From the NCBI GenBank assembly GCA_030696345.1, contig JAUYSK010000018.1, positions 62,001 to 126,000 on the forward strand: 64,000 nt of DNA, in the 5' to 3' direction. The notes under the pieces are model-generated. The model did no database searches, had not been told where the DNA came from, and saw only the letters and a list, made by a program, of their open reading frames with translations. Below are positions 31,145 to 40,005 of this stretch, piece after piece. The DNA is from Azonexus sp. (lineage in GTDB: Bacteria > Pseudomonadota > Gammaproteobacteria > Burkholderiales > Rhodocyclaceae). Both the position numbers and the translations under genes were made by a program. Position 1 is the first letter of the stretch, and every line of letters starts with the position of its first letter.

Positions 31145-31507
31145 TCAGCGGCCTCGACCCCCACCTCCCATTCCACCGCCCGAACCCATTCCGCCACCGG
31201 AACCCATTCCACCACCCGCGCCCATGCCCGTGCCTTGACGCATGCCCCCACCTTGAGTCGGGGGCGAATCTGGCAGGGTTGTGCCACGCTCCTTGGCTCT
31301 AAGCTGCATTTGTTCATGATGTTCCAAACGAACTTGCTCACGCTCCTGGGGTGTTTTGGCGGCATTCATTTTCGTGCGTTGTTCCATCCTCTCCTGATTG
31401 GTCATCATCTGACTGCCATAAATGGGCTCATCGGCAGCAATGGAACCAGAAGTCATAAGTCCTAAAGCGATAGCGGTCAGCACGAGTTTTACTGTGTTCT
31501 TGGTCAT
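31145..31507 (-). CDS. Secreted Met/Gly-rich small protein
   Basis: A 120-residue exported protein, not recognised. It has a signal peptide (about 1-25, ending SIAA), a charged helical middle rich in Met, Glu and Arg (SQMMTNQERMEQRTKMN) and a Gly/Met tail with repeated GMGSGG-type units. Met-rich exported proteins often bind Cu(I) or act as sinks for oxidants, but that is inference. The ATG at 31507 has GGGAG 8 bases upstream; an earlier in-frame start exists but lacks this. It lies just past the DoxX end of the RiPP operon on the same strand, separated by about 380 bp. Confidence 0.6.
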   Translation of the reverse strand: MTKNTVKLVLTAIALGLMTSGSIAADEPIYGSQMMTNQERMEQRTKMNAAKTPQEREQVRLEHHEQMQLRAKERGTTLPDSPPTQGGGMRQGTGMGAGGGMGSGGGMGSGGGMGGGGRGR

Positions 31508-31889: not shown

Positions 31890-32393
31890 CTATTTGAGCA
31901 CTCGGCGGCGCAGCCAGTAATCCAGCGACAACTTGCCCGGCCCCATCAGGATCAGTGGCAGCAGCATGCCAATGAAAAGTACCGGTAGCTTGAAGTTGCC
32001 AAAGCCCTGGTCGGTAAAGCCGTAGCCCATCAGCAGGTCGCTGTAACTCGACCACATTTCCGGCCAATGGACGCTGGCGATGGCGACGAGCGTGAGGATC
32101 AGCAGCGACATCGAGAAAAATCGGGTGCCCAGGCCAACCACCAGCGCCACGCCGCCCAGCAGCTCGAACCACGTCGCCATCTGCCAACTGAGATCAGGTG
32201 GTACGAGACTGAAAGGGAAGGGGAAGCGTTCCTGAATGTCGGCAAACCAGTTGCTGCCGTTGAACTTTTCCAGACCGGATTCGAAGAAATCCCAGCCGAG
32301 CAGCAGGCGCAGGCTGAGCAGGCCAAGCCAGAGTCCGAGGGCATCGATGCCATCAAGGGCCAGGACAATGGGGCGTTTCAGGATGTTGTTCAT
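31890..32393 (-). CDS. DoxX-family membrane protein (HvfD-like)
   Basis: A 167-residue membrane protein with four hydrophobic segments (about 18-36, 70-90, 92-108, 133-152). The family start LSLRLLLGWDFFESGLEKF is typical of DoxX. DoxX proteins are regular partners in HvfABCD-type operons, where the fourth gene (hvfD) encodes one; the role may be membrane-linked electron transfer or metal handling. Its ATG overlaps the stop of the DUF2063 gene (ATGA). It is the last gene of the five-gene unit. Confidence 0.85.
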   Translation of the reverse strand: MNNILKRPIVLALDGIDALGLWLGLLSLRLLLGWDFFESGLEKFNGSNWFADIQERFPFPFSLVPPDLSWQMATWFELLGGVALVVGLGTRFFSMSLLILTLVAIASVHWPEMWSSYSDLLMGYGFTDQGFGNFKLPVLFIGMLLPLILMGPGKLSLDYWLRRRVLK

Positions 32394-33133
32394 GCTTGGG
32401 CTCCGAGAATGATGCCCTCAGTGCGAAAGTCTTCAAGCAGGGCTTTGCCGAAGGCCTGCAGTTGCGCCGGTTCAGGGTGATGCAGCTCGTCAGCAATCTG
32501 TTGGCAGGCGGCTTCACCGCTGGTCGGGGCAAGGGCCAGCAGCACGAGGAGACGGGCGGTGACCGGGTTGATTTCGACAAATTTCACTGCGTCGGCGGCG
32601 TTGCGATAGACCACGAGTTGCGTCGTTTGCTGCTTGCGCGGCCGGTAATCAGGGCCGATCCGGTGCACCGGCCAGGCATAGGTCAGGTTTAGCAGGACCG
32701 GGTTGAGGATGACGACTCGCTGCATCAGATCGCCGGCCGGATCGTGCTCGGGGATGGGGCAATCCATGACGTCGAGCGCCAGTTCGGTCCATTCGTAATG
32801 TGCCAGTTCGGCGAACCAGGCCGGCAAGGGCTGGCGGATGGCGAACTCATTCAGGTAGCGGACGAATTCGCGCGGAATCTCGCGAAACCACGGCGTGTGC
32901 GATTTCCAGTCGCGAAAGAAGGCACGGTTCAGGCGTCGCCAGTTGGTCTCGCCGAGCAGCTTGCGGCAAACCGGGAAGCAGGCGTCGAGAAAGCCGGTGA
33001 TGTTGTTGAACAGCAGTTCGTTGTAGACCGCCATGCGGCGGGCCGGTACGCCGGCCGGGCGCGGTGTGTGATGCGGGTCGCGCAGATGGCGGCCAAAGGC
33101 CTGCTGGAAAGCCTGAAAGTCGGGGGCGCTCAT
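32390..33133 (-). CDS. DUF2063 RiPP partner protein (HvfC/BufC-like)
   Basis: A 247-residue DUF2063 protein. The N-terminal domain (about 5-95) has the family pattern FQQAFGRHLRDP and RMAVYNELLFNNITGFLDACFPVCRKLLG. The C-terminal half is a second domain, probably the peptide-recognition part. In characterised HvfABC and BufABC systems this protein binds the precursor leader and presents it to the MNIO enzyme. The ATG shares one base with the stop of the DUF692 gene (TGATG) and the stop overlaps doxX, so all three are coupled. Confidence 0.88.
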   Translation of the reverse strand: MSAPDFQAFQQAFGRHLRDPHHTPRPAGVPARRMAVYNELLFNNITGFLDACFPVCRKLLGETNWRRLNRAFFRDWKSHTPWFREIPREFVRYLNEFAIRQPLPAWFAELAHYEWTELALDVMDCPIPEHDPAGDLMQRVVILNPVLLNLTYAWPVHRIGPDYRPRKQQTTQLVVYRNAADAVKFVEINPVTARLLVLLALAPTSGEAACQQIADELHHPEPAQLQAFGKALLEDFRTEGIILGAQA

Positions 33134-33990
33134 CAGGCAGCCTCACGGCGTTTACTGGCGGCCAGCGTCTGGCGTTGAGCGATGATCTCGACTTCTGCGG
33201 TCAACTGCCCCAGGTCGGGAATATTGAAGTCGCGTTCGAGGCAGGTCGGGACGTTGCCGATACGCTCATAGGCGGCGTCAAGCAGTGACCAGACCGGGTT
33301 GATGACGTCGGCGCCATGGGTGTCGATCAGCAGGCCGTCCGGTTCGACATAGTGCCCGGCGACATGAACGTAGCAGGTTCGGTCGAGCGGCAGGGCGTTC
33401 ATGAATTCCTGGGCATCGAAGCCGAAATTGCGACTGTTGACGTAGATGTTATTGACGTCGAGGTGAAGCAGGCAATCGGCTTCGCGCACGATGGCAGAGA
33501 TGAATTCGGTCTCGCTCATCTCGGCACCCGGTGGGGTGACGTAGTAGGAGGCGTTTTCGATACCGATGCGCATGCCAAGAATGTCCTGGGCCCGAGCGAT
33601 GCGGTCGACCGTCCATTTGACGGCATTTTCAGTCATCGGGATTGGCAGCAGATCGTAGAGATGGCCGTCGTCGCCACACCAGGAAAGGTGTTCGGTGTAC
33701 AAGGCCATGCCATGTTCGGTCATGAATGATTTGATCCGCCGCAGCAGGGTTTCATCGAGCGGCATCGGGCCACCCAACGAGAGCGATAAGCCATGGCAGA
33801 CAAAGGGATAACGTTCGGTGAAGTGGCGCAGATCTTTAGCCGATTTGCCGCCCATGCCGGCCCAGTTTTCCGGGGCCAGTTCAAAGAAGCGGATGGCGTC
33901 GGGAACGCCGGCTTTCAGCGCTTCGATCAGTTCGCGGCGAAAGCCGAGGCCGGCGCCGCGGGCTGCGCGGGGCATCTGGTGTTGAGGCAT
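33133..33990 (-). CDS. MNIO / DUF692 multinuclear iron oxidase (HvfB/BufB-like)
   Basis: A 285-residue TIM-barrel enzyme of the MNIO family, which uses two or three iron ions and O2 to rebuild cysteines of a precursor peptide into oxazolone/thioamide or thiooxazole groups. Family marks are GAGLGFRRELIE near the start, FFELAPENW, the His and Asp/Glu ligand stretches in VCHGLSLSLG, YTEHLSWCG, IGIENASYY, LHLDVNNIYVN and HVAGHY, and LLIDTHG. The ATG at 33990 has GGAGAG at good spacing; an upstream frame start adds 16 unlikely residues. It lies between the Cys-repeat precursor gene and DUF2063. Confidence 0.92.
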   Translation of the reverse strand: MPQHQMPRAARGAGLGFRRELIEALKAGVPDAIRFFELAPENWAGMGGKSAKDLRHFTERYPFVCHGLSLSLGGPMPLDETLLRRIKSFMTEHGMALYTEHLSWCGDDGHLYDLLPIPMTENAVKWTVDRIARAQDILGMRIGIENASYYVTPPGAEMSETEFISAIVREADCLLHLDVNNIYVNSRNFGFDAQEFMNALPLDRTCYVHVAGHYVEPDGLLIDTHGADVINPVWSLLDAAYERIGNVPTCLERDFNIPDLGQLTAEVEIIAQRQTLAASKRREAA

Positions 33991-34014
33991 TTTGCTCTCC
34001 AAGGGAAGGGGCGG

Positions 34015-34031
34015 GCAGGGAGTTTCCCTGC
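34015..34031 (-). promoter_or_regulatory. Stem-loop between precursor and enzyme genes
   Basis: GCAGGGA and TCCCTGC pair perfectly with a 3-base loop, in the 63-bp gap between the precursor stop and the MNIO ribosome-binding site. There is no T-run. Such hairpins can protect or partly terminate the upstream message, so that the precursor peptide is made in excess over its enzymes. Confidence 0.45.
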
Positions 34032-34053
34032 GCCGCAACCCGTCAATGCCTGC

Positions 34054-34374
34054 TTATTTCTTCTTGTCAGCGCCGCACTTGGCTTCGCCGCATTTGCCAT
34101 CTTTCATCTTGGTCTCGGCGGCCTTTTTGTCGGCACCGCACTTGGCTTCGCCACACTTGCCGTCCTTCTTCTTTTCGGCCGCCTTCTTGTCAGCGCCACA
34201 CTTGGCCTCACCGCATTTGCCATCCTTGGCCTTGGTGTCAGCCTGGGCCAACTGATAACCGGCTTCAAGCTTGGTGGCACCAAACGGGTTGTCGGCGGCG
34301 TGGGCAACCGGGGTCAGGGCAATGGCGGCAAAGGTGGAAGCGACGGCCAGGGAAACAAAACTTTTCTTTTTCAT
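34054..34374 (-). CDS. Cys-repeat RiPP precursor (HvfA/bufferin-like)
   Basis: A 106-residue exported peptide. A Sec-type signal peptide (about 1-26, ending AHA) serves as leader. After a short linker the core carries three near-identical units of KDGKCGEAKCGADKK, giving six cysteines in KCGEAKCG pairs. This matches HvfA-type precursors (EGKCGEGKCG arrays), whose cysteines are modified by the MNIO enzyme to bind copper. GGAGA lies 6 bases before the ATG. The unit is encoded by DNA repeats of about 45-51 bp, so copy number could change by recombination. It sits between a zinc anti-sigma-like gene and the MNIO gene. The metal is inferred from the family. Confidence 0.9.
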   Translation of the reverse strand: MKKKSFVSLAVASTFAAIALTPVAHAADNPFGATKLEAGYQLAQADTKAKDGKCGEAKCGADKKAAEKKKDGKCGEAKCGADKKAAETKMKDGKCGEAKCGADKKK

Positions 34375-34405
34375 GGTTTTCTCCGATGAGATTGAGGTGG
34401 TTGGA

Positions 34406-34585
34406 TCAGTCGCTATGACTCATCCAGGAGCCCATGGCCTGGCGCAAGAACCGGAACTGCTTTTCAGCCCGCCGGCAGCCGATACAGAACGCCAGGTGCA
34501 GGCGCAACTGAAGACGTACCCAGAAACCGAGGGGGCGTTCCAGTTGAAGCGAGACGAGGCGGGTGGCTTCCTTGCAGCTGATCAT
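34406..34585 (-). CDS. Small zinc-binding anti-sigma-like protein heading the RiPP operon
   Basis: A 59-residue protein: MISCKEATRLVSLQLERPL at the start, then H30-x3-C34-x2-C37 (HLAFCIGC). This is the HxxxCxxC zinc anti-sigma (zf-HC2) motif, with C4 as the usual additional ligand. The rest is helical and Arg-rich, and there is no membrane segment. AGGA lies 7 bases before the ATG. Such short anti-sigma factors normally sit directly after their ECF sigma gene. Here no sigma gene adjoins it; the nearest is the ECF gene at 39436-40005. It starts the transcript that continues into the precursor gene 31 bp downstream, suggesting redox- or metal-controlled release of a sigma factor that drives this operon. 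Confidence 0.75.
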   Translation of the reverse strand: MISCKEATRLVSLQLERPLGFWVRLQLRLHLAFCIGCRRAEKQFRFLRQAMGSWMSHSD

Positions 34586-34625: not shown

Positions 34626-34655
34626 ATTAGTCGGCGGAAACCGGAAATCCTTACA
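34626..34655 (-). promoter_or_regulatory. Putative ECF-type promoter of the RiPP operon
   Basis: On the minus strand TGTAAGGA (34655-34648) and CGACTAAT (34633-34626) are separated by 14 bp, preceded by an A/T-only stretch of about 20 bp that resembles an UP element. The form TGTAAG...CGnCTAA fits ECF sigma promoters better than sigma-70. It lies about 40 bp before the anti-sigma-like start codon. The assignment is by pattern only. Confidence 0.5.
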
Positions 34656-34753: not shown

Positions 34754-36925
34754 CTAGCGCTTTACGTCCTGGGCCAGAAAGGCTTCCACCTGGGCGGCGG
34801 GGAGCGGGCGGCTGAACAGGAAGCCCTGCATTTCGTCGCAGCCCAGCCTGAGCAGGGCCTGCTTCTGAGCCTCGGTTTCAACGCCTTCGGCCAGCACATG
34901 CAGGCCAAAACTGTGGGCAATGCCCAGAATGGCGTGAATGATGGCATTCGATCCGTGGCCAAGACTGATGTCGCGCACGAAGGCCTGGTCGATCTTGAGG
35001 CTGCTGACCGAGAAGCGGCGCAGATAATTGAGCGACGAATAGCGCGTGCCAAAATCATCGATCGAGATTCGCATGCCGGTCCGGCGCAACTGGCGAACCT
35101 TGGAAATGATGGTTTCGGCATCCTTCATCAGGAGGCTTTCGGTAATCTCGATTTCAATCGCCTCGGGTGGAATGCCGTGGCGGTTGAGCGGCCCGGTGAC
35201 ACGCTCGAACAGGTCGCTGCGCTCGAACTCGCGAGGCGACAGGTTGATGCCCATCTTGAGGTCGACGAAACCCTTCCGTCGCAAGGCGGCCAACTGGGCG
35301 CAGCCGGCTTCGAGTACCCAGTCGCTGATCGGCAGGATCATGCCGCCTTCTTCCGCCAGCGGAATGAAGGCGTCGGGGGAGATCAGCCCCTGGGTCGGGT
35401 GATTCCAGCGAATCAGCGCTTCAAAGCCGATCACCCTGCCGAGCGTCAGATTGATTTGGGGCTGGAAGTGAAGCTCGAATTGATCGCCTTGCTTGATGGC
35501 CTGTCGAAGGTCGTTCTCCAGCGAAATGCGCTCGACGTGATTGGTGTTCATCGAGGCCTGGAATTCGACGTAGCCGTTTTTTCCTTGTGCCTTGGTCTGA
35601 TACATCGCAATGTCGGCATTGCGGATCAGATCTTCCGAATTGTTGCCATCTTCCGGATAGACCGCGATACCGATGCTTACCGTGGCAAGGAAGTCACGCT
35701 CGGCGACGGTAAACGGCCGCTTCAGTTCGAACAGCATTTTCTTGGCAATGGTAATGACGTCGTCAGCGCTGTTGATATCGGGCAGCAGTACGGTGAATTC
35801 ATCCCCACCCTGGCGGGCCAGCGTGTCGCCGGAGCGCAGGCACTGGCGAACGCGCTGCGCGAACTCCTTGAGTAGCTGGTCTCCCTCGGGGTGACCGTAG
35901 GTGTCGTTGATCAGCTTGAAGCGGTCGATGTCGAGGAACATCACGCCCAGTCGCTGGTTGCGTCGATTGGCCTGGGTGATCGAGAGTTCGAGCCGATCCA
36001 TGAACAGCGTTCGGTTGGGCAGGCCAGTCAGCAGATCATGGAAGGCCTGGAAGGCGATCATTTCTTCCGCCCGCTTGCGCTCGGTAATGTCCCGGGCGAC
36101 ACCCGAGGTACCCATGAACTGTTGTTGCGGTGCTTCTTCTTCCTGCGTGTAGATTCCTTGAGAACTCAGGATGGCAACAATCATCCGGTTTTCAAAATGG
36201 CGAACACCGCTCTGTTTGTTGACCAGGCGTACTTCGAAATTGTTGGTCGCGCGCTCGCCAATACGGCGTTCGTTGAAGGCGTAGAGTGCCTGATCGACAT
36301 CGTCTTCGTGAACGATGACCGAGTAGTGCTGCCCGATCAATTCATCCCGTTTATAGCCGAGCAGCGACTCGACGCGGCCATTGACGAAAATGAAACGACT
36401 ATTGCTGTCCAGTGTGTAGATCAGGTCCGGCGACTGTTCCACCAGAAAACGGTGCAGACGCTCGGATTGTTCCAGGCGGCCAGTCATCAGGGCGTGTTCC
36501 TGCTCCATCCGGCGGCGACGCAGGGCGCGGTCCACGCTGTCGATCACCTCATTCGGATCACAATGTTTGCGGATGAATTCAAAAGCACCCTGGCGCAGTG
36601 CCTGAATCGCCGAATCGATTGATTCATCAGCGCTGAAGACAATAACCGAGGTCGAAATATGGTTGCGGGTCAGCCAGTCCATGATCTCGATGCCACCGAT
36701 ATCCGGCAGCTTCAGGTCAAGAACGACAACGTCAATGTCGCGGCCGCCAAGGCGTTGCAGGGCATCCTTGCCGCAGCTGCATTCCTCGATACTGCGCCCG
36801 GGGCCGGAGAGGAGTTCTCGGTAGGCAGTCCGGAAGCGTGGTTCGTCGTCGACGATAAGGATGCGCTGGGATTCCACAAGGTCCGGGATGGCACTTATAG
36901 AGTCAATATTTGTAACAGCGTTCAT
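34754..36925 (-). CDS. Receiver-PAS-GGDEF-EAL cyclic-di-GMP enzyme
   Basis: A 723-residue cytosolic protein. It has a receiver domain (about 20-135, phospho-acceptor in VVVLDLKLPDIGG), a PAS domain (about 150-280) and a GGDEF domain with intact GGDEF and an RSGD inhibitory site five residues before it. The EAL domain (about 465-715) has EALIRW, the Asn in INLS, EIEITES, SIDDFGTRYSSL and AEGVETE. Both halves keep their catalytic residues, so it may make or degrade c-di-GMP depending on state. Its ATG overlaps the stop of the HDOD kinase gene (ATGA); phosphorylation by that kinase is a natural guess. Confidence 0.94.
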   Translation of the reverse strand: MNAVTNIDSISAIPDLVESQRILIVDDEPRFRTAYRELLSGPGRSIEECSCGKDALQRLGGRDIDVVVLDLKLPDIGGIEIMDWLTRNHISTSVIVFSADESIDSAIQALRQGAFEFIRKHCDPNEVIDSVDRALRRRRMEQEHALMTGRLEQSERLHRFLVEQSPDLIYTLDSNSRFIFVNGRVESLLGYKRDELIGQHYSVIVHEDDVDQALYAFNERRIGERATNNFEVRLVNKQSGVRHFENRMIVAILSSQGIYTQEEEAPQQQFMGTSGVARDITERKRAEEMIAFQAFHDLLTGLPNRTLFMDRLELSITQANRRNQRLGVMFLDIDRFKLINDTYGHPEGDQLLKEFAQRVRQCLRSGDTLARQGGDEFTVLLPDINSADDVITIAKKMLFELKRPFTVAERDFLATVSIGIAVYPEDGNNSEDLIRNADIAMYQTKAQGKNGYVEFQASMNTNHVERISLENDLRQAIKQGDQFELHFQPQINLTLGRVIGFEALIRWNHPTQGLISPDAFIPLAEEGGMILPISDWVLEAGCAQLAALRRKGFVDLKMGINLSPREFERSDLFERVTGPLNRHGIPPEAIEIEITESLLMKDAETIISKVRQLRRTGMRISIDDFGTRYSSLNYLRRFSVSSLKIDQAFVRDISLGHGSNAIIHAILGIAHSFGLHVLAEGVETEAQKQALLRLGCDEMQGFLFSRPLPAAQVEAFLAQDVKR

Positions 36926-39135
36926 TTGTCGGTTACTCCACAGGCTTGCCCGGATACGGCGAGGCTTGATCGGGGTGCATCGGCAGCGGACGATTCGGTG
37001 CCGAATTTGGGAATGAGCAGGGCGATACTGGTGCCTTTGCCAGCTTGGCTACGGCACGTTATGGGAATTCCCTGGCGGGTAGCCAATGTGCCGACGATGG
37101 ACAGGCCCAGACCGCGTGGGCCGGTTCGGTTGGCATCAACAGGATGGTGGATGGAATGCATGGCGGCATCCGACATGCCTGGCCCATTGTCGTCCATCCT
37201 GACCTGAATATAGGCGTGGCCGCTATGGACGACGTGGTCGGTCAGGGAAATCTTGATCTGCTGGCCGGAGACCAGGGCCTCGGAGGCATTTTTCCAGAGA
37301 TTGAGCAAAATCTGCTTCAGGCTGTCGCGCTCGCACTTGACGCGCAGCGACTCGGCCGGTTGCGACACTTCAAACTTGATACCCTTGGCCTGGAACAGTG
37401 CGTCGCCGTAGAGGAGCAGCAATTCATTGACCAGTTCACCCGCATCAAGCCCGTTGGCCGGTGCCTGATCTTTCGGGATATCGTTCATGCGCCCGACGAT
37501 GCCAGCAACCCGGTCAATCTCTTCGTTCAATACTTCGAGTTCCTGCCGCACGCCAGCTTCTGCCGGCAGCTTGTGGTCAAGAATCTTGAGGTAACTCTTG
37601 ATGATGCCCAGCGGATTTCCGGCTTCATGAATGACCCGCCGGGCCTGTTTGTTGAAGCGGCTGGCGGCATCGTGTTCGGCTTGTTGCCGATAGTCCTTGG
37701 CTTCCTGCAGCGAATCGAGGCTGATGGCTGCGATGCGGCCGAAATTCAGCAGCCAGGGCAGGCGCCGGGAGAGGCGTGAAAATTGGGCCTGGCTCAGTCC
37801 GCAGACCATGACGCCGGCAATCCGGTTGCGCCCGATCATTGGAATGCAGAGCAGGCCGGCACTGCCGAGGGCGCGGGCGAATTGAATATCGATCAGGGCA
37901 TTTTGTGGCGTTGCCTGTGGGTCGAAAGAGCACTGTATTTTTTTCTTGAAGGCGGCTGCAGATACCAGAGAGCGATGTTCTTCCGGGTGGAGCTTGACCT
38001 GCCGGAAGATCGCGGGCTGGTCGCCGATGCTGGCGCCGGATAGCTTTTTCTCGGTCGGGCTGTAGAGAAGAAAGGCCAGCCGGTTCAGGTCGAAAAGTAT
38101 CCGGGCCGATTCTTTCAGCGATAGCAGGACCTCGGCATCGCTTTCGAGTTCGAACAAGTCTTGCTGCAGGGGCTGCAGCAAGGCCATGCCGCCGATCATC
38201 GAAGACAGTTCGCTTTCAGCGGAACTTTCCGGAGCTTGTTGATGTGGCTCGACTTGCAGGTTCTTCCAGACTTGAAGGGCACAAACCTTTTCCGGTGGCG
38301 TGAAGCCGAGCGCCTCGGAAATCTGTTTGGTCTGGGTTTCTGCCCGCTGGCGCAGGATCTCGAGATCAATGCCGCCTGGCGGGTTGGCAATCTGCTGGTG
38401 GAAGGCAACCATTTCCGGCGCGATTTCCTCGCTGGCAGCGATGGCGTGGGCCAGCCAGACAATCTGTGGGAGCAAATCAGCGGTGACGATTTCCTCCAGC
38501 TTGGCGTGGTGGAAGAGAATGCCATCGGCAAATGAGGAATCGAGGTGCCATTTGTCGGTCAGCCAGGTGCCGATTTCGCCGTGATGGACGCCGAACTGGG
38601 CAGTTTCCATGGCCTGAAGCGCATCCTCGTCGGAGGTGCTGGCGAGTAGTTGGGCGTAGGGCTCGCCGAGGGCTGAAAGCAGGATCAGTTCGCCGATGTC
38701 GTGGAGCAGTCCGGCCAGGTAGGCTTCTTCAGGGTGAGGGTGGTTGGCGGAAACGGCCAGGCTGCGCGAAAGCTCGGCTACGATCAGCGAATGTATCCAG
38801 AATCCCGAGAGGTCAGCCGCGGAAATTCCGTAACGACGTTCAAACAGGTTCTGAATCGACAGGCAGGTGGCAATCGAACGGACCAGCCTGGTGCCAAGGG
38901 CTGTCAGGCAGTTCTCAAGACTTCTCAATTCCGAGCCGCGCCGCAAGGCGGGGGAGTTGGCAATGCTTAGTACCCGGGTGGAAAGCCCCGGGTCTTGCCT
39001 GACCAGTTTGGCCAGATCGCCGACGCTCGTCTGGTCGTCATCGACCATCTGCAGCAGGCGCAGCAGAAGCTGCGGCGGTGAAGGAACCCGCCCCGACTCG
39101 ATAGCATGCAGGATGGGTTCGGGGAGTTTATGCAT
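36922..39135 (-). CDS. HDOD-GAF-histidine kinase
   Basis: A 737-residue soluble protein with an HDOD domain (about 15-215, including LVRQDPGLSTRVLSIANSP and LAGLLHDIGELI), a GAF-like region (about 330-465), a short phospho-acceptor segment RRVIHEAGNPLGIIKSYL (about 495-515) and a HATPase domain with NLWKNASEAL and GLGLSIVGTLA. This architecture links a metal-independent HD-type signal domain to a kinase. It is followed with 4-bp overlap by the receiver-GGDEF-EAL gene, so the pair is likely a two-component route into c-di-GMP control. Confidence 0.9.
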   Translation of the reverse strand: MHKLPEPILHAIESGRVPSPPQLLLRLLQMVDDDQTSVGDLAKLVRQDPGLSTRVLSIANSPALRRGSELRSLENCLTALGTRLVRSIATCLSIQNLFERRYGISAADLSGFWIHSLIVAELSRSLAVSANHPHPEEAYLAGLLHDIGELILLSALGEPYAQLLASTSDEDALQAMETAQFGVHHGEIGTWLTDKWHLDSSFADGILFHHAKLEEIVTADLLPQIVWLAHAIAASEEIAPEMVAFHQQIANPPGGIDLEILRQRAETQTKQISEALGFTPPEKVCALQVWKNLQVEPHQQAPESSAESELSSMIGGMALLQPLQQDLFELESDAEVLLSLKESARILFDLNRLAFLLYSPTEKKLSGASIGDQPAIFRQVKLHPEEHRSLVSAAAFKKKIQCSFDPQATPQNALIDIQFARALGSAGLLCIPMIGRNRIAGVMVCGLSQAQFSRLSRRLPWLLNFGRIAAISLDSLQEAKDYRQQAEHDAASRFNKQARRVIHEAGNPLGIIKSYLKILDHKLPAEAGVRQELEVLNEEIDRVAGIVGRMNDIPKDQAPANGLDAGELVNELLLLYGDALFQAKGIKFEVSQPAESLRVKCERDSLKQILLNLWKNASEALVSGQQIKISLTDHVVHSGHAYIQVRMDDNGPGMSDAAMHSIHHPVDANRTGPRGLGLSIVGTLATRQGIPITCRSQAGKGTSIALLIPKFGTESSAADAPRSSLAVSGQACGVTDK

Positions 39136-39435: not shown

Positions 39436-40005
39436 ATGACACATGACCCGCTGCATGACCCCGTATTTCTGAACGAAGTTCGTCGTGACATGTTGCGTTT
39501 TGCCGAAATGCAATTGCGCGACAAGGCGCAGGCCGAGGATGCAGTGCAGGAAGCATTGGCGGCGGCGCTACAGGGTCGGGAAAATTTTTCCTCGCAGGCC
39601 TCGCTACGGACCTGGGTGCTCGCCATCCTGAAAAACAAGATCATCGATGCCTTGCGTCATCGGGTTCGCGAACGTGCTGCGGTAGACGTCGAAAGTGATG
39701 CCGATCTTGATGTCTACTTCGACCAGCGCCAGCATTGGGCCGAAGATACCCGGCCATCGGCATGGGAAACGCCGCAGCAGGCGATGGAAAACAAGCGTTT
39801 CTGGGAGATTTTCGAGGCCTGCCTCTACCGCCTGCCCGAGGCCAGCGCCCGCATTTTTACCATGCGGGAAGTGCTCGGCTTCGATACCGAGGAAATCTGT
39901 GAGGTGCTGGCGATCAGCAATAACAACTGCTGGGTGCAACTGCATCGCGCTCGTCTGACCTTGCGCGCCTGCCTTGGTGTCAAGTGGTTCGGTGAGGCCG
40001 CCTGA
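39436..40005 (+). CDS. ECF-family RNA polymerase sigma factor
   Basis: A 189-residue group IV sigma factor. Region 2 spans about 12-80 with RFAEMQLRDKAQAEDAVQEAL and LRTWVLAILKNKIID. A linker with RPSAWETPQQAMENKRFWEIFEACL follows. Region 4 (about 130-180) is LPEASARIFTMREVLGFDTEEICEVLAISNNNCWVQLHRARLTLR. This type is usually followed at once by a small zinc anti-sigma gene, but here the next gene is a convergent lipoprotein. A matching anti-sigma-like gene heads the RiPP operon 5 kb away. Start uncertain (see the upstream region). Confidence 0.92.
   Translation: MTHDPLHDPVFLNEVRRDMLRFAEMQLRDKAQAEDAVQEALAAALQGRENFSSQASLRTWVLAILKNKIIDALRHRVRERAAVDVESDADLDVYFDQRQHWAEDTRPSAWETPQQAMENKRFWEIFEACLYRLPEASARIFTMREVLGFDTEEICEVLAISNNNCWVQLHRARLTLRACLGVKWFGEAA

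Follow-up and report, generated by a model that had tools for sequence, protein, structure and literature searches.

An hvf-type peptide operon in Azonexus sp. and its probable control by a dedicated sigma factor

Described relatives and the Azonexus operon

Among gene clusters for ribosomally synthesised and post-translationally modified peptides (RiPPs) that rely on an MNIO (DUF692) enzyme, a close described counterpart of the operon treated here is HvfABCX of Haemophilus influenzae with its sigma/anti-sigma pair RpoE2-HrsE (PMC13419390, PMC7907618; all articles are cited from partial text, to which statements about them are confined). The H. influenzae precursor HvfA has an N-terminal secretion signal, three AEGKCGEGKCG motifs and six modified cysteines (PMC13419390), and under hypochlorous acid RpoE2 is reported to govern both msrAB and a gene cluster with DoxX, COG3767, COG3220 and DUF2063 members (PMC7907618); judged by its COG families, this DoxX cluster would be the hvf operon. 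The present analysis concerns a 64,000-nucleotide stretch of the Azonexus sp. assembly GCA_030696345.1 (contig JAUYSK010000018.1, positions 62,001 to 126,000), hereafter the window, in which five minus-strand open reading frames at 31890-34585 encode a short anti-sigma factor and proteins of the HvfA, HvfB, HvfC and HvfX types. The operon itself is an ordinary member of the known hvf/oxazolin family, and we hold with good confidence that it is an HvfABCX (oxazolin/captophorin-type) operon under a dedicated extracytoplasmic function (ECF) sigma factor. An earlier note on this DNA was confined to the five genes; the informative parts lie outside those coordinates, namely the likely sigma partner, the distance that parts it from the anti-sigma gene in this genome, and a promoter motif tying the copper peptide to methionine-sulfoxide repair.

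The likeness to H. influenzae extends to a signal that here is Sec-like by eye, three paired KCG units, six cysteines, MNIO, DUF2063 partner and DoxX protein (PMC13419390), and further to a short zinc anti-sigma factor and control shared with msrAB (PMC7907618), the latter predicted here from sequence. In H. influenzae, however, the sigma and anti-sigma genes lie beside msrAB and away from the DoxX cluster, whereas in this genome the anti-sigma gene is the first of the hvf operon, and the units read GKCGEAKCG rather than EGKCGEGKCG. Since H. influenzae HvfA also has a secretion signal, three units and six cysteines (PMC13419390), these are family norms, and the Sec leader and three-unit repeat, once thought special to this version, are not. 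About 2,000 EGKCG proteins are described, and most MNIO-modified precursors bear Sec signals (PMC12452194).

A regulatory parallel exists in Neisseria, where the sigmaE operon NMB2140-NMB2145 (PMC2893595, PMC3240639) likewise includes an anti-sigma factor, MseR, and a DoxX-family gene, shares the msrA/msrB target, and has a near-identical promoter. Both the DoxX-containing sigmaE operon and msrA/msrB are listed as sigmaE targets (PMC2893595), and loss of MseR raises the operon 6- to 36-fold and msrA/msrB 81-fold (PMC3240639). There the sigma gene lies inside the operon, in contrast to its divergent position in the Azonexus relatives and its distant one in this genome, and one base of the -10 element differs. 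On the enzymatic side the fontiphorin FonABC/captophorin class (PMC13097082) shares a Lys-Cys MNIO with Arg-Arg and Asp-Phe residues, and the FonA peptide SGEAKCGEGKCGEK resembles the units found here; as described in that article, fon comprises only precursor, MNIO and partner genes, unlike the present operon. BufABC bufferins (PMC12452194) also combine an MNIO, a DUF2063 partner, DoxX and an exported cysteine-bearing precursor, and Buf1 clusters occur with sigma and anti-sigma genes, but their precursors belong to other families (DUF2282 in Buf1; Buf2) and the Buf1 anti-sigma factor is NrsF, not of the zinc type.

All five genes claimed by the earlier note are present where it placed them, and Pfam and NCBIfam models name each one. 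Downstream of the anti-sigma gene lie the hvfA-type precursor gene (34054..34374, minus strand; 106 residues; NF050137 KCGExKCG_twice, 70.3 bits against a cut-off of 19.5), hvfB encoding the 285-residue MNIO maturase (33133..33990, minus strand; NF003818, 396.6 bits, cut-off 360; PF05114, 330 bits), hvfC encoding the DUF2063 partner protein (32390..33133, minus strand; NF050145, 299 bits, cut-off 142; PF09836 and PF22106), and hvfX encoding a DoxX-family membrane protein (31890..32393, minus strand; NF050144, 142.3 bits, cut-off 80; PF07681). The HvfB product is the genome's single match to the MNIO family, aligns to the solved relative 3BWW with an E value of 2.5e-74, and has its closest genus-named records in Dechloromonas and Azonexus. 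Coupling of all five genes, as first described, holds for the lower two junctions, where hvfB and hvfC overlap through TGATG and hvfC and hvfX through ATGA; the upper two are gaps, of 31 nucleotides between the anti-sigma and precursor genes and 63 between the precursor and MNIO genes.

The sigma/anti-sigma pair and a shared promoter motif

The operon begins with the anti-sigma gene (34406..34585, minus strand, stop codon included), whose 59-residue product matches NF052368 antisigmaE at 67.5 bits (cut-off 50) and zf-HC2 at 24.3 bits (cut-off 22.2). Its putative zinc ligands, C4-X25-H30-X3-C34-X2-C37, match the zinc-binding anti-sigma (ZAS) definition C/H-X23-26-H-X3-C-X2-C given for such proteins (PMC7907618), and in an alignment of 84 rows, in which some genes are entered twice, C4, H30 and C34 are conserved in all 82 rows that have a letter there and C37 in all 84. 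Elsewhere in the genome the protein has one weak match (34% identity, E 0.16, two internal stops). Rather than the extra gene it had been taken for, it appears to be half of a sigma/anti-sigma pair, the other half of which stands in the same window at 39436..40005 on the plus strand and is missing from the earlier note. This ECF sigma gene, one of nine matches in a Sigma70_r2 search of the genome, scores 306.1 bits against NF008892 (cut-off 291) and 273 bits against TIGR02943 (cut-off 162.2).

A sample of 60 same-genus genomes was drawn, of which 17 besides the present one hold a sigma orthologue at 73-79% identity, the nearest being 79% identical. At every testable same-genus locus (16 of 16, with the sigma gene of G407 in two frames) the sigma and anti-sigma genes stand head to head, their start codons lying 114-118 bp apart in G420, G421 and G062; the seventeenth sigma-bearing locus, L155 of G428, starts at a contig edge and is untestable for adjacency. 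In a class-level search a relative of the sigma gene adjoins the anti-sigma gene in 29 of 29 other loci. We regard the ECF sigma factor as the likely partner of the anti-sigma factor, and the two proteins are predicted to bind each other. Other arrangements also occur: in six loci (L081, L083, L162, L164, L165, L166) a second sigma clade (~50% identity) accompanies an anti-sigma gene at the 3' end of hvfABCX, and in Limnohabitans and other Burkholderiales (L088-L095, L097-L102) hvfABCX has a divergently oriented ECF sigma gene that is more remote in sequence (104-123 bits), and an anti-sigma gene of the present type was not detected at those loci.

The second line of evidence is a promoter motif. 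Upstream of the anti-sigma gene, every sigma/anti-sigma intergenic stretch compared over its whole length (all but that of L144) carries TGTAA-N17-CGAC(T/C)AAT, either as such or with one base changed, and in the window this conserved, ECF-type element reads TGTAAGGATTT-N11-CGACTAAT at 34626..34655 on the minus strand. Across the 3.96-Mb genome the looser pattern TGTAANNNTTN12CGACTAAT is matched exactly at two places, one before this operon and the other on a different contig, 64 nucleotides before an msrAB lipoprotein fusion gene whose MsrA and MsrB domains (157.5 and 134.6 bits) both exceed their cut-offs. Allowing one mismatch leaves these two sites against none for the reversed pattern. 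A scan of the window for exact sites returned one match, against none in 100 shuffles, and is circular because the pattern was read from that same site. The Neisseria sigmaE consensus is GTMAGBWTT, 12-13 nucleotides, CGTCTAAH (PMC2893595), and read as GTAAGGATT, 12 nucleotides and CGACTAAT, the element here fits it in the -35 part and the spacer. Use of this promoter at the operon is predicted by analogy.

Sites of the same kind recur in relatives. The motif search covered 41 genomes of the same-genus sample of 60, comprising 18 that have the sigma orthologue (the present one included) and 23 that lack it; the remaining 19, among them G380 with a partial 85% sigma match at a contig edge, stood outside the search. 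With at most one mismatch the 18 sigma-bearing genomes hold 38 sites, against 4 for the reversed pattern. Seventeen of these precede the anti-sigma-hvf operon, in all sigma-bearing genomes but G428, and the remaining 21 lie ahead of a thioredoxin-like gene (8), msrP (7), msrAB (3), hvfX (2) or arsS (1). One example each of msrAB, msrP, thioredoxin-like, arsS and DUF2282 genes was confirmed with profile models, and the other cases, as well as hvfX and the PhnD-like gene mentioned below, were recognised by eye. MsrP has no match in the present genome, so that it is not under the motif there. It matches Pfam family PF00174, and the report that a few EGKCG clusters contain PF00174 and ferric-reductase genes (PMC12452194) gives a printed hint of the msrP link. 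Loci L209 (G376), L216 and L227 (G424) add a separate observation: genes for the arsenosugar radical SAM protein ArsS also lie behind the motif, and G424 further has DUF2282 and PhnD-like genes behind it.

What the motif sites adjoin bears on the signal. Copper itself might induce the operon, with the anti-sigma factor serving as direct copper sensor or being incidental, a reading that we consider unlikely. Copper could attack the zinc centres of anti-sigma factors, which would speak for it. So would the link of captophorin and bufferin peptides to copper (PMC13097082, PMC12452194), but none of the 21 further sites precedes a copper exporter, and those relatives that have been characterised are connected with msrAB and with oxidants (PMC7907618, PMC2893595). 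The second site, at msrAB, would favour periplasmic oxidation over copper alone as the trigger, and the operon is probably induced by periplasmic oxidants.

The mechanism favoured here, control by the dedicated sigma factor, draws on sequence for the identities of the genes, the conservation of residues in the enzyme and the zinc site, the conserved association of sigma with anti-sigma genes, and the motif with the genes beside it; its remaining steps come from characterised relatives. Periplasmic oxidant stress, possibly also copper stress, would lead to loss or oxidation of the zinc centre in the small anti-sigma protein, and the freed sigma factor would start transcription at the GTAAGGATT-N12-CGACTAAT promoter. 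Transcription of the operon would yield more anti-sigma factor, as negative feedback, along with HvfA, HvfB, HvfC and HvfX, while the second motif site would provide the repair enzyme MsrAB. HvfB and HvfC would turn the Lys-Cys sites of HvfA into 5-thiooxazoles, and the exported peptide would hold copper in the periplasm.

A broader proposal, for and against which we see the case as evenly balanced, is that the copper-binding RiPP of Dechloromonas-like betaproteobacteria belongs, as one arm, to a small regulon for the repair of oxidant damage in the periplasm. Its dedicated ECF sigma factor would switch on the RiPP along with a methionine-sulfoxide repair enzyme, MsrAB or MsrP, and in many relatives also a thioredoxin-like gene of the periplasm. 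The main task of the peptide would be to keep copper from feeding oxidative damage, and the anti-sigma gene of the present genome, parted from the sigma gene, would persist purely for feedback within the operon on which it acts. The motif bears on what triggers thiooxazole copper peptides and on what they do: with two exact sites, at a peptide operon and a methionine-sulfoxide repair gene, it allows a direct test, in a free-living genus, of the link to oxidant repair. If the proposal is right, the Neisseria/Haemophilus regulon extends to environmental bacteria, and msrP, the thioredoxin-like gene and hvfX become added candidate targets. No published account of a Dechloromonas-type regulon was found in the literature searched, which left out most subscription journals. 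A link to chlorite metabolism was also considered and dropped, there being no chlorite dismutase match in the genome.

The split gene pair and the weight of contrary evidence

Several observations count against control by the dedicated sigma factor. In this genome the sigma and anti-sigma genes are not adjacent but 4.85 kb apart. Moreover, the sigma gene here lacks the divergent upstream stretch (GATCATACTG or close variants) found before its relatives' sigma genes, and its expression is uncertain because of both the distance and this loss. The motif evidence has its own weak points. At two mismatches it no longer stands out in this genome, where the pattern gives 3 sites and its reverse 7, so that only near-exact sites are meaningful, and the -10 element CGACTAAT departs from the Neisseria consensus at one of eight bases (PMC2893595). 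Four of the 18 sigma-bearing genomes (G062, G392, G413, G431) have the operon site and no second one, and G428, whose locus begins at a contig edge, has no operon site. The 23 contrast genomes without the orthologue hold 14 sites, the reversed pattern giving 4; a related sigma factor of about 50% identity is present in several of them, and of the 12 contrast sites inspected, eight precede hvfA (2), msrAB (2), msrP, arsS, DUF2282 or PhnD-like genes and four precede nothing recognisable. Since many of the genomes are close relatives, the sites are not independent of one another. On the peptide side, the precursor scores 50.8 bits against the strict HvfA equivalog NF050188, under its cut-off of 95, and is therefore a family member and not the HvfA equivalog itself.

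Between the separated genes lie two others, both on the minus strand, named through Pfam and not part of the system: a response regulator/PAS/GGDEF/EAL gene (34754..36925) and an HDOD/histidine-kinase gene (36922..39135). In G421 (L241, 7120-12081) a homologous GGDEF/EAL-HDOD pair lies on the far side of the sigma gene. The flanking genes there keep the order of the window, hvfABC to one side and, to the other, genes for a lipoprotein, a histidine kinase and a response regulator and dsbB, and only the two neighbouring blocks differ; hvfX was not found on the G421 contig. The order in G421 therefore indicates that the sigma gene and the GGDEF/EAL-HDOD blocks were swapped between the two genomes, and either order may be the older. 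G420 and G062 lack the GGDEF/EAL-HDOD pair at the locus.

The same comparison bears on whether the split is genuine. An assembly error could have produced it, the genome being a draft of 28 contigs with 4.66% contamination and the arrangement being the only split among 17 same-genus loci in which both genes were found (its own included). We nonetheless judge such an error highly improbable, in view of the collinear flanks shared with G421 and the position of the window inside a single 146-kb contig. If the rearrangement is real, it might have decoupled the pair, leaving the sigma gene silent or answering to other signals while another promoter drives the operon. The distance, the missing upstream stretch and the uniqueness of the split all lend this some substance, yet the sigma gene has kept an intact frame, scores above its model cut-off and retains its 79% identity to the nearest orthologues, the anti-sigma ligands are intact, and the motif is exact at both sites, the operon side having retained it despite the split. 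Decoupling is on this evidence quite doubtful, and regulation of the operon by the dedicated ECF sigma factor remains the reading we prefer.

Peptide type, predicted chemistry and neighbouring features

The precursor has its cysteines at residues 54, 59, 74, 79, 95 and 100, arranged in three KCGEAKCG units as the earlier note had read them, and it matches NF050137 in three stretches with an E value of 7.5e-20, which places the repeat beyond chance. Its N-terminus, inspected by eye alone, has a KKK start, a hydrophobic stretch and AHA-A, resembling a Sec signal and similar in relatives. The first assignment to HvfABCD/BufABC systems is sustained on the Hvf side, where the HvfB, HvfC, HvfX and HvfA-repeat models all pass. 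Membership of BufABC was rejected: with E values up to 1 admitted, the precursor matches neither PF10048 (DUF2282) nor NF050166 (BufA2-type), and the MNIO reaches 256.5 bits against the BufB equivalog NF050167, under its cut-off of 310. As judged by these models, the operon is of the HvfA/EGKCG (oxazolin, captophorin) type.

Arg-Arg and Asp-Phe residues of MNIO enzymes have been tied to Lys-Cys substrates (PMC13097082), and the site-3 ligands of HvfB have been described (PMC13419390); the MNIO here retains all of these. The equivalents of FonB R15, R16, D249 and F250 and of HvfB N175, D242 and H244, placed through motifs and the 3BWW alignment rather than a structure, are identical in all lettered rows (56 to 58 of 58). 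The published modification is a 5-thiooxazole with a loss of 4 H per Lys-Cys site (PMC13097082), which for six cysteines would amount to 24 H and replaces the loss of 2 or 4 H per cysteine pair expected earlier. Modification of the cysteines and copper binding by HvfA are predicted here on the model of these relatives. In five related loci (L062, L065, L067, L143, L151) the precursor units are mostly DASCG-, DGSCG- or EAKCG-like, not GKCGEAKCG, although the MNIO residues tied to Lys-Cys substrates are unchanged, and such precursors beside this enzyme are a natural test of substrate tolerance.

Below hvfX a small exported-looking protein with a Gly/Met-rich tail (31145-31507, minus strand) has no Pfam or NCBIfam family at E up to 0.001. 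On the minus strand between 31600 and 35000, a sigma-70 promoter scan returned one site, before the operon, against 0.8 expected, and was not used; a scan of the same interval found no intrinsic terminator between hvfA and hvfB. The spacer between these two genes does contain a G+C-rich hairpin with a 10-pair helix and no U run (34011..34036, minus strand). Across 15 spacers 96.6% of its cells are paired, and 10 cells are changed on both sides where shuffles give 3.8 (none of 500 reaches 10); pairs with change on both sides number 3 against 1.9 (27 of 500 reach 3), and further pair types 5 against 4.9 (443 of 500 reach 5). The 15 spacers were hand-picked, with mononucleotide-shuffle scores from +0.8 to -3.5, and because they were chosen for a visible hairpin these figures are suggestive only; the hairpin is possibly an element of message processing or protection.

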